NCBI GenBank assembly: GCA_024231775.1
Contig: JAAEQG010000665.1
Span: 1-34,513 of the forward strand
DNA: 34,513 nt
Source of the DNA: a bacterium
GTDB lineage: Bacteria; Planctomycetota; Phycisphaerae; UBA1845
Reading direction: 5' to 3'
Within the stretch, counting starts at the first letter, position 1. The number at the start of each line of letters is the position of its first letter. A program made the translations under genes and the position numbers. Shown one piece after another: positions 1,553-26,381 of this stretch. The notes beneath the pieces were generated by a model that saw only the letters and a list, made by a program, of their open reading frames with translations, made no database searches and was not told where the DNA came from.

Positions 1553-1573
1553 CCACCAGGACCTCCGCTGGGG

Positions 1574-1673
1574 GCCATACTCATCCCGGAGGGTGAGCAT
1601 GTCGCCGGGCCAATCATGGCCACGCTCCGCAGTGGCCATGCCACCCTGCATCTTGTCTCCGATAGCCAAAGCG
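1574..1673 (-). repeat. 100-bp two-hairpin interspersed repeat, copy A
   Basis: The minus strand matches plus-strand 23531-23630 over 100 positions with 14 mismatches and no gap by hand count. Read on the minus strand it holds two palindromes: CATGGCCAC / GTGGCCATG (nine pairs, 8-base loop) and CATGCTCA / TGAGTATG (eight pairs including one G-T, 10-base loop). It sits between the 3' ends of the membrane-protein gene and the crotonase gene. A small open frame crosses it in both copies, but no ribosome-binding site supports translation. Confidence 0.8.
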
Positions 1674-1739
1674 CCGGCGCCCCCGCAGATGACTGCTTTC
1701 GTCACCCCGGACACAGGCTGCGCATGCGTTGAGATTGCC

Positions 1740-13780: not shown

Positions 13781-14860
13781 ATGCACCGTGCCAAAACGCT
13801 CCGACCGGGAGCTATGTTGTGCGTCTGTCTGTTGGTGTCGGGTCTGGGAGGTACTGCCCTTGCTGACTACTCCATCGTCGACCTGGGCACGCTGGGCGGG
13901 AACTCCAGTAATGCCCTCGGCATCAACGATCTCGGTCACGTTGCCGGTCACTCCCGCACCGGCGTTGGCACAGAATACCATGCCTTCCTGCACAGCGATG
14001 GCGTCATGCAAGACTTGGGTACGATGGGGGGGGACTGGAGCCGCGCCTACGACGTCAACAACTCCGGCCAAGTGGCGGGAAACGCTGAGAGTCTCTCGGG
14101 GGGTCAGCACGCCTTCCTGTATAGTGATGGCGTGATGACCGATCTGGGCACGTTGGGGGGAACGACGAGCCACGCCAATAGCATCAACGATTCCGGGCAA
14201 ATGGCAGGATTCGCCGCGCTGGCCGACGGAACGCGTACCGCCTTCCTCTACAGCGATGGCGCCATGCAAGACCTGGGTACGCCGGGGGATAGAGGCAGTT
14301 GGGCATGGGGTATCAACAACGCCGGTCACGTCACCGGCTACTCACTTATCGGCGATGACATAGAATACCGTGCCTTCCTGTACAGCGATGGCGTCAAGCA
14401 TGACTTGGGCACACTGGGAGGAACGAAGTCCTTTGGGTGGGCTGTCAACGACCTCGGGCAGGTGGTGGGATGGTCGAGTACGGTGGGCGACGCTGCATCC
14501 CACGCCTTCCTCTACAGCGACGGCGCCATGACCGACCTGGGCGCGATGGGCTGGACGTCCAGTCGCGCCCGGGACATCAACGACGCCGGCCAGGTGGTGG
14601 GATCCGCCTCCTTGACGGGCGTGCAATCCAGCGCCTTCCTGTACAGCGACGGTGTCATGACCGACCTTAACGACCTTGTACCGTCCGGTTCCGGCTGGAG
14701 ACTCGAAGAGGCCTACGGCATCAACGATTCCGGGTGGATCACGGGAAACGGCGTTGCACCAGATGGGAATCGCCGAGGGTTCCTGCTGATTCCTGAGCCC
14801 GCCACTCTCTCGCTGCTCGCCCTTGGCGGACTGCTCGCGGGCAGACCGCGGCGCCAATAG
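13781..14860 (+). CDS. HAF-repeat exported protein with PEP-CTERM sorting signal
   Basis: The product has 359 residues. A signal peptide (ending near GGTALA) is followed by about six repeats of the HAF type. Each contains DLGTLGG or a variant, then IND-GQV-G, then AFLYSDG-M. The repeats span residues 30-320. The C-terminus IPEPATLSLLALGGLLAGRPRRQ is a PEP-CTERM signal: PEP motif, hydrophobic stretch, basic tail. Such signals direct sorting to the cell surface by an exosortase; no exosortase gene is in the window. The ATG has AGGAGGAG eight bases upstream. A CGGCGC-CAATA-GCGCCG hairpin spans the stop codon. The precise role of HAF proteins is not established. Confidence 0.88.
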   Translation: MHRAKTLRPGAMLCVCLLVSGLGGTALADYSIVDLGTLGGNSSNALGINDLGHVAGHSRTGVGTEYHAFLHSDGVMQDLGTMGGDWSRAYDVNNSGQVAGNAESLSGGQHAFLYSDGVMTDLGTLGGTTSHANSINDSGQMAGFAALADGTRTAFLYSDGAMQDLGTPGDRGSWAWGINNAGHVTGYSLIGDDIEYRAFLYSDGVKHDLGTLGGTKSFGWAVNDLGQVVGWSSTVGDAASHAFLYSDGAMTDLGAMGWTSSRARDINDAGQVVGSASLTGVQSSAFLYSDGVMTDLNDLVPSGSGWRLEEAYGINDSGWITGNGVAPDGNRRGFLLIPEPATLSLLALGGLLAGRPRRQ

Positions 14861-21355: not shown

Positions 21356-21536
21356 CGCCCTGAAAGGGCGCACTATGACAGCCCAGGGCAACGCCCTGGG
21401 GCGGGATTGCCCGAAGCAACGTAAGCCCTGAAGGGGCGAAGTTAAGCTATGCCGCCCTGTCAGGGCTCGCGTTTGTCTCAGTCACGAGGCCCCAGGGCGT
21501 TGCCCTGGGCTGGTCTATGACGCCCCGTTGGGGCTT
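21356..21536. repeat. Composite inverted-repeat element of palindromes
   Basis: Two diverged copies of a unit of about 90 bp face each other, meeting near 21441-21450. Each unit carries three palindromes: a CGCCCYGAA-RGGGCG type, the perfect 8-bp stem CCCAGGGC / GCCCTGGG (21382-21400, and inverted at 21491-21509), and a CCCTGA-RGGGCG type. It lies in the 21245-21685 spacer between two genes and shows no coding potential. The arrangement resembles REP/BIME-type elements; no transposase is nearby. Confidence 0.8.
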
Positions 21537-22321: not shown

Positions 22322-23485
22322 ATGAAAGTCCACGAGTATCAGGCACGGCAGTTGTTGCAGGACGCCGGCGTCCCGGTTCCGGCGTCGGAAGTAGTGGAAA
22401 CCGTCAAGGCTGCGATGGCCGCCCATGAGAAGATCGGCGGGACGGTCGTGGTCAAAGCTCAGGTCTTCGCCGGCGGGCGGGGCAAGGCGGGGTTCGTCAA
22501 GCTCTGCAAGACCCCCGCCGAAACCGAGACCGCCGCCAAGTTCATGCTCTCCAACCGCATGGTCTCCAAGCAGACCGGGCCGGAGGGTATCGAAGTGAAG
22601 AAGTTGCTGGTGGCGGACGGCGTGGATATCGACTCCGAGTACTACGTCGGCGTGGTGCTCGACCGAGCCAGACGCACCCCGGTGATGATGGTGTCCCGTG
22701 AGGGCGGCGTCGAAATCGAGGAGGTCGCGGCGCGCAATCCGGATGCCATCGTCAAAGAGTGGTTCCATCCACACCTGGGCCTGCAGAGTTTCCAGATCGC
22801 CAAGCTGATCGGCGCCCTCGGACTGACCGACAAGGAGCAGGCCAAAGCCACCGCAAAGGTGCTCCGTGGATTGGCCAAGATCTTTCTATCCAAGGACTGC
22901 TCGCTCGCCGAGATCAACCCGCTGATACGCACGCCCGACGGGCAGATCCTGGCGATCGATGCGAAGATGAACTTCGATGACTCCGCGATGTTCCGCCACG
23001 CCGACCTCCAGAAGATGCACGACCCCACGGAGGAGAACGAGGCAGAGCTTCGCGCCCAGAAGGCGGATCTCACCTACATCGCTCTGGACGGCAACATCGG
23101 ATGTCTGGTCAACGGAGCCGGTCTGGCGATGTCGACTATGGACATCATCAAGCTCCACGGTGGCGAGCCCGCCAACTTCCTCGATGTCGGCGGATCGGTG
23201 ACCGCCGAGGGAGCCACCGAAGCGTTCCGCATCATCCTCGCCGACCCCAAGGTCAAGGGCGTGTTGGTCAACATCTTCGGCGGAATCGCCAAATGCGATA
23301 CCATCGCCGAGGCTCTGATTAACGCAGCCAAAGAGGTGGGCTTCAACGTGCCCGTGGTCGTGCGCCTGGAGGGCACCAACGTCGAACGCGCCCGGGCCAT
23401 GCTCAAAGAAGCCGCCATCAAGCAACTGATCCCCGCGGACGACCTGACCGACGCCGCCAAGAAAGTCTGCGCCCAGGTAGCCTGA
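22322..23485 (+). CDS. sucC: Succinate--CoA ligase (ADP-forming), beta subunit
   Basis: The product has 387 residues, the standard size. SucC with SucD converts succinyl-CoA to succinate with ATP formation in the TCA cycle. The ATP-grasp N-terminus reads [20 protein letters not shown], with [19 protein letters not shown] for nucleotide binding. [22 protein letters not shown] carries the metal-binding Asn and Asp. The C-terminal domain has [28 protein letters not shown] and [19 protein letters not shown] 22322 matches the universal SucC start; AAGG lies a short distance upstream. Unusually, no sucD follows; the next gene, 390 bp on, encodes an unrelated DUF1579 protein. Confidence 0.95.
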
Positions 23486-23530
23486 CAGACCGCGGCAAAA
23501 CACCAACCGAGTAGCGCCCGGGTGTCCCAA

Positions 23531-23630
23531 CGCTTCGGCGGTGGGAGACAAGATGCAGGGTGCCATGGCCATCGCGCAGCGTGGCCATGATCGAGCTGGC
23601 GGCATGCTCACCCTCCGGGATGAGCATGGC
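23531..23630 (+). repeat. 100-bp two-hairpin interspersed repeat, copy B
   Basis: This copy lies 45 bp after sucC, in the plus orientation. Hairpin 1 is CATGGCCAT / GTGGCCATG (23564-23589, last pair G-T); hairpin 2 is the perfect CATGCTCA / TGAGCATG (23603-23628). A partial third copy of the left end, CGCTTCAGCGGTGGGAGACAA, follows at 23653-23673 (20 of 21 bases equal). The rest of the spacer to 23874 shows nothing else. Confidence 0.8.
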
Positions 23631-23874
23631 ACCCGATGCCCATGTGCCCTATCGCTTCAGCGGTGGGAGACAACCCTTCCGCAGAGCTCGGAACCACTCC
23701 CCGGACAGGTCGTAACCCATCGCCTGAAAATCACTTACGACCACACACCTCATTCGCCCAGAATAATCCATACCGAACATTGACCGAACACCAATGCGGC
23801 GATACACTCCCCGTCGGGTGGGGGACCGGAGAGCCCTCACCGGAATGAAACTCGCTTTGATAAGGAGACAAACC

Positions 23875-26217: not shown

Positions 26218-26283
26218 GCCGGGTGGCCCATCTCGTTGATTCGCCTCCAGGCCGGGTGGCCCATCTCGTTGATCCGCCTCCAA
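26218..26283 (+). repeat. Tandem 33-bp repeat, two copies
   Basis: 26218-26250 and 26251-26283 match at 31 of 33 positions (GCCGGGTGGCCCATCTCG and onward). A partial third relative, GCCGGGTGCCCCATC, is at 26346-26360. The unit is a multiple of three, but the surrounding frame lacks a ribosome-binding site and a plausible protein. Confidence 0.8.
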
Positions 26284-26354
26284 GCGGATCTCGAGGTGGG
26301 GGACAGACTGGCCGCGAAGATGCTCAAAAGACGCAAGGTTTGTGCGCCGGGTGC

Positions 26355-26381
26355 CCCATCCTTTGTTCAACAAAGGGTGGG
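26355..26381. repeat. Perfect-type hairpin CCCATCCTTTGTT / AACAAAGGGTGGG
   Basis: Thirteen positions on each side pair with one T-G wobble; the innermost two cannot form with a one-base loop. It lies in the gene-free 26147-26813 spacer. The flanking GGTGCCCC and GGGAGC look like the edges of a dispersed palindromic repeat. Confidence 0.55.

Follow-up and report, generated by a model that had tools for sequence, protein, structure and literature searches.

The repeat examined here occurs twice in a 34,513-nucleotide stretch of planctomycete DNA (the window), in both cases in a spacer that follows a coding gene. The copy at 1574-1673 sits between an open reading frame (ORF) ending at 1552 on the plus strand and a convergent minus-strand ORF (1702-2478) with an enoyl-CoA hydratase domain, and the copy at 23531-23630 is located downstream of a succinyl-CoA-ligase-type gene that ends at 23485. 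When the minus strand of the former was re-aligned with the plus strand of the latter, exactly 14 mismatches were found in 100 ungapped positions, as the sequence-only reading had reported together with the placement just after coding genes. The alignment extends to 116 nt (1570-1685 and 23519-23634), with 96 identities and 20 mismatches. Used as a BLAST query against its own genome, the 23.5-kb copy recovers the 1.6-kb copy at E = 3e-28, so the resemblance of the two is not a matter of chance. A third, partial copy preserving only the left end had also been proposed at 23653. The similarity there is real, but it belongs to a separate single-hairpin unit (M0, described below), which the genome also contains in isolation at other sites. 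The features recognized in the window are collected in Table 1.

Table 1. Repeat units of the GGGTGC family located in the window, with the evidence for each.
Feature	Position	Strand	Evidence and remarks
Best composite copy (M0-M1-M2, three hairpins)	23519..23634	+	116 nt in common with 1570-1685 minus; core covariance-model match 104 bits
M0 unit: foot GGGTGT (degenerate GGGTGC) + stem-loop CCCAACGCTTCGGCGGTGGG	23520..23545	+	Fold; alignment with RAYT-adjoining hairpins; 28 strict M0 copies in genome
M1 unit: foot GGGTGC (23558-23563) + stem-loop CATGGCCATCGCGCAGCGTGGCCATG	23558..23589	+	Fold, core alignment
M2 unit, inverted: minus-strand foot GGGTGC (23634-23629) + stem-loop CATGCTCATCCCGGAGGGTGAGCATG	23603..23634	-	Fold, core alignment
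Second composite copy, decayed	1570..1685	-	M0 ~1658-1679 eroded; M1 1615-1640 foot GGGTGG; M2 1576-1601 foot GGGGGC
Free-standing M0 unit, degenerate foot ATGTGC (23642-23647), stem-loop 23648-23667	23642..23667	+	BLAST and repeat comparison
M0-like unit: perfect GGGTGC foot + stem-loop CCCATCCTTTGTTCAACAAAGGGTGGG	26349..26381	+	Hairpin scan; fourth hairpin site in window

Comparison of copies revealed a constant order of hairpins, with M0 followed by M1 and then by M2 in inverted orientation. M0 consists of GGGTGC and CCCATCGCTTCAGCGGTGGG and is joined by the linker AGACAAGATGC to M1, which is composed of GGGTGC and CATGGCCATCGCGCAGCGTGGCCATG and followed by a short spacer starting with ATTGG; M2 reads CATGCTCACCCTCCGGGATGAGCATG plus GCACCC, that is, a GGGTGC foot on the other strand. 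All three hairpins therefore carry one and the same 5' foot, GGGTGC (core GTG[C/G]), directly at the base of the stem. Each of them is also found singly, and some copies are made of M1 and M2 without M0. The M1/M2 pairs fall into two spacer classes, with a core of 81 nt or, with the longer spacer, of about 133 nt. Eighteen cores align end to end with a conserved spacer, as is typical of REPINs and BIMEs, and their boundaries are sharp and coincide with the feet. The family has the generic attributes of REP sequences, being a short, multicopy, mostly extragenic palindrome with a conserved foot directly 5' of the hairpin. However, almost every copy has GTGC as its foot, with GTGG as a variant only, which places the family outside the canonical GT[AG]G definition, and the GGGTGC of the aligned copies is not the foot of CGTC-REPs either.

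The genome that contains the window (6.7 Mb in 1677 contigs, 97.6% complete) holds many more copies, which we counted by searching the assembly and by reading about 0.5 Mb of its contigs directly. At least 55 BLAST matches were recovered, and the covariance model that we built gave 68 matches, about 11 of which represent the palindrome as read from the opposite strand. The strict M0 pattern matched 28 times and the reversed pattern never. Mean pairwise identity among the 18 cores was 0.84, and the nearest relative of a core was mostly 0.82-0.96 identical; one pair reached 0.98, and there the flanks were likewise duplicated. As judged by a crude gene model in which 86% of bases are coding and 14% non-coding, 29 of 44 units are intergenic and 15 lie inside called ORFs, some of them doubtful. 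Several intergenic copies are situated between convergent genes and some between divergent genes. In 503 kb of own-genome contigs, the tetramers that most frequently directly preceded perfect hairpins of at least 8 bp were GTAG (25 cases, 20-fold enriched) and GTGC (18 cases, 8-fold), and the hexamer GGGTGC was enriched 86-fold; many of these contigs had been chosen for holding a repeat copy or a Y1 transposase gene, so the counts should not be taken as an unbiased survey. The tetramer counts indicate that the genome possesses classical GTAG REPs beside the GGGTGC family.

Among the genomes searched, the exact composite was present only in the window's own genome, with weaker matches in congeners (best E about 4e-7). 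The footed M1 hairpin is distributed much more widely, in more than 100 contigs, nearly all from Planctomycetota (Pirellulales, Phycisphaerae, Gemmataceae, Blastopirellula marina). Its pattern also matched three proteobacterial contigs (L064, L139, L142), and isolated hits of this kind in another phylum may be due to chance. The contigs that hold the M1 hairpin hold many other stems behind GGGTGC, for example CATGCCCACG..CGTGGGCATG and CACTGCTGG..CCAGCAGTG. Taken with the copy numbers above, this distribution bears out the dispersed element family suspected from the two window copies, which are far from being the only ones.

The association of these hairpins with transposase genes was sought at Y1 transposase genes (PF01797) from the own genome and from 16 genomes chosen for holding the M1 hairpin. 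None of the six Y1 loci of the own genome had tagged hairpins, and few were seen at IS200-like Y1 genes elsewhere; given this near-absence, the flank search turned to the RAYT subgroup, with RAYT genes from 40 relatives not chosen by the M1 hairpin. All 11 proteins of the RAYT alignment (A2) match the NCBIfam model of REP-associated tyrosine transposases (NF047646). Of 40 RAYT loci, 20 had hairpins with GTG[CG] feet on both sides, inverted relative to each other, whereas none of 68 other Y1 loci had them (p about 5e-11, a value that overstates independence, as several RAYT loci share genomes and the 16 genomes were selected by the M1 hairpin). Examples include L203, L195, L198, L192, L173, L243, L246 and L256. 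The other 20 RAYT loci lacked a strict two-sided match, and 10 of the 12 inspected among them display looser inverted tagged palindromes with the foot GGGTGC, GGGTGG or TGTGCC. When all 256 tetramers were tested at the RAYT loci, the best four were GGTG, GTGC, GGGT and TGCC, which are overlapping registers of GGGTGCC.

Two groups of RAYTs carry the same foot with different stems. Group A comprises matches to A2 at E < 1e-65, or A2 members and their close relatives; group B matches A2 at E of about 1e-22 to 1e-41, with a gene truncated at the end of its contig as the weakest member. The group B genes (L260-L264) are accompanied by CCCATC/CCCACG-type stems, which is the M0 type, and CATG/CACTG-type stems go with the other group. 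In L264, from the same family as the window's genome, a group B RAYT is flanked by GGGTGC plus CCCATCGCTTTAGCGGTGGG and by GGGTGC plus CCCATCGCTTCAGCGGTGGG in the same orientation, and in a genome of the same genus (G017, L266) a group B gene cut by the contig end is adjoined by two M0 hairpins. With M0 of group B type and M1/M2 an inverted pair of group A type, the window element thus combines both types. Alignment of group A RAYTs to 4er8 placed D and R at E100 and H101, the residues that contact the guide in the E. coli RAYT (PMC6006769). The substitutions E100D and H101R could fit a changed foot, but we regard them as a weak hint because GT[AG]G subclasses show them too.

A RAYT of group A or B was not detected in the own genome, where the best match to A2 had E = 2e-8. 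This match is a RAYT-like gene on contig C1093 (L035, L370) with canonical REPs (GTAGCGGCCGGCGTCCCCGCCGGCC) on both sides, and several further GTAG REP types were observed in the same genome. A RAYT-like gene flanked by REP hairpins in the same genome could in principle serve the GGGTGC repeats, but we consider this highly improbable. The flanking hairpins (GTAGCGGCCGGC..) differ from the GGGTGC family in both foot and stem, which assigns the C1093 gene to the GTAG family, and in published RAYTs foot changes abolish or alter cleavage, those at positions 3-4 having the largest effect (PMC8266576). On the simplest interpretation, the GGGTGC repeats have outlived their transposases in this genome, although a cognate gene may possibly be missing through the fragmented assembly. 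With copies mostly 80-93% alike and no cognate RAYT assembled, the family is probably a remnant there. The earlier suggestion that the repeat was mobilized by a distant transposase receives indirect support: tagged hairpins flank RAYTs and not other Y1 genes in relatives, but no cognate RAYT is detectable in the own genome.

The position of both window copies after coding genes, and of several intergenic copies between convergent genes, had made a 3' RNA structure worth considering, that is, a terminator or mRNA-stabilizing element that selection maintains where genes end. The 23.5-kb copy folds into stable hairpins (z ~ -2.9), in keeping with such a role, but they lack a T run or terminator pattern on the gene strand; the terminator scan of this copy returned one weak minus-strand site at 23521-23507 and none overlapping the hairpins on the transcribed strand. 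Moreover, the 1.6-kb copy folds no better than shuffled sequences (z ~ -0.9), some copies lie between divergent genes, and compensatory changes are absent among own-genome copies, which are too alike for covariation to inform. The genes preceding both window copies are kept in two congeners at 74-84% identity, and no repeat aligned at the same gene ends, similarity stopping at or near the stop codon, which argues against a conserved 3' regulatory element. Note that gene order at the two loci differs in the congeners, so that what can be stated is the absence of the repeat and not an empty site. Rfam covariance models at gathering score matched only one tRNA and two Acido-Lenti-1 sequences in the window, none over the repeats; both copies are intergenic and fall in no annotated gene or known RNA family. 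The 3' RNA proposal of the sequence-only reading thus lacks specific support and is very unlikely, although an inserted REP may incidentally affect the RNA. An explanation of the repeat as a MITE of a double-strand (DDE) transposon, with GGGTGCCATG / CATGGCACCC as terminal inverted repeats, would account for a core of about 80 bp bounded by perfect 10-bp outer inverted repeats. These repeats are, however, the feet and stem bases of two hairpins, single hairpins disperse alone as well, and the transposase genes flanked by hairpins with this foot are of the single-strand (Y1/RAYT) kind, all of which makes a DDE origin very unlikely.

On the strength of its anatomy, its genome-wide dispersal, the foot common to differing stems and the presence of hairpins with this foot, inverted, on either side of RAYT genes in relatives, we interpret the element as a member of a REP/REPIN-type non-autonomous family with a non-canonical GGGTGC foot that was spread in trans by RAYTs (probability about 0.8). 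Its mobility we infer; neither transposition nor excision was observed, and no empty site was seen. The REP-type reading would have a RAYT, an HUH single-strand nuclease with one tyrosine, bind foot and hairpin in single-stranded DNA, cut at a dinucleotide specified by the guide, and paste copies elsewhere. RAYTs from E. coli, S. maltophilia and Marinomonas are known to act on single-stranded REP hairpins, with the foot mattering for binding and/or cleavage, and in one of them the foot chooses the dinucleotide that is cut (PMC8266576). By analogy with these enzymes, group A and B RAYTs would act in trans on GGGTGC hairpins. The 116-bp composite could in principle be processed as one unit because it presents GGGTGC-type feet, inverted, at both outer ends, despite the likeness of M0 to the repeats of one RAYT group and of M1/M2 to those of another. 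The linker shared among copies likewise suggests that the composite replicates as a unit.

Parallels with described systems help delimit the family. Like REPs of the GTAG superfamily and their RAYT/TnpA_REP REPtrons (PMC3733652, PMC6006769, PMC8266576), it is built of short palindromes, each with a conserved tetranucleotide as its foot immediately 5' to the stem, is mostly intergenic and multicopy, forms inverted pairs and clusters, and flanks RAYT genes in inverted orientation. It differs in that the foot is GTGC within GGGTGC instead of GT[AG]G and in that no cognate RAYT was detected for the copies of the own genome. Published search rules demand a GTAG or GTGG foot (PMC6006769) and would consequently miss the GTGC majority. 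M1 and M2 constitute an inverted doublet with a conserved spacer, two spacer classes and a unit fold, as in REPINs and BIMEs, whose doublets have been proposed as the moving unit (PMC3116915). However, the stems of M1 and M2 differ, and a third hairpin with another stem type, M0, is joined to many copies. The terminal inverted repeats of TIRYT elements (PMC3733652) are also non-GTAG inverted repeats around tyrosine transposase genes and multicopy in some genomes; as described in the main text of that study, some are set apart by the motif GGGGWSAS instead of GGGTGC, and some of the R. baltica repeats could be identical to ours. In the accessible literature we found no earlier description of a GGGTGC repeat, and the literal motif GGGTGCC likewise returned nothing relevant.

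The REP interpretation accounts for a common planctomycete repeat and ties it to RAYT genes. As a tentative extension, for which we would give slightly less than even odds, the GGGTGC foot may define a further, phylum-wide REP superfamily in Planctomycetota, with two or more RAYT groups that have this foot in common and differ in stem. In the window's genome, units of both groups would have fused, spread as one element and persisted without transposases. A composite built from the units of two RAYT groups offers a way to ask whether RAYTs recognize foot, stem or both. Furthermore, the GTGC foot is a natural variant for which the cross-pairing rule for positions 3-4 predicts cutting at GC and not at CT.

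Other repeats and Y1 genes were encountered along the way. The two Acido-Lenti-1 matches (RF01687, listed as an sRNA gene) form an inverted pair 135 bp apart at 21356-21400 (minus strand) and 21491-21535 (plus strand). There are 75 occurrences in the own genome, many paired at the same 135-bp offset. Y1 transposase genes are bracketed by Acido-Lenti-1 in L146, L147 and L149 and have it on a single side in L153, L161 and L031. Rather than an sRNA, Acido-Lenti-1 appears to be the terminal hairpin of a Y1 element and of that element's short derivative. Two Y1/RAYT domains lie in frame within other genes. One is located in a Ham1/RdgB-type nucleotidase (ORF 598-2127 of L172; Pfam finds Ham1p_like in two stretches with Y1_Tnp between them) and is bordered by repeats encoding the peptides GTGFQPV and HRLEAGP (GTGGGACCGGCTTCCAGCCGGT hairpins). 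The other is in an MmeI-like restriction-modification ORF of the own genome (L036, contig C1064), with GTAGCCCAGCCGCCCCCGGCTGGG hairpins on either side, within the reading frame. In the window itself, a tandem 33-bp repeat (GCCGGGTGGCCCATCTCGTTGAT..) occupies 26218-26283, and the similar GGGTGGCCCATCTCGTTGATC borders a REP cluster on contig C1000 (L016/L020). Finally, six copies of a ~130-bp unit, spaced by 129-132 bp and apparently coding, extend over 13880-14681 and fit a protein of short tandem repeats.
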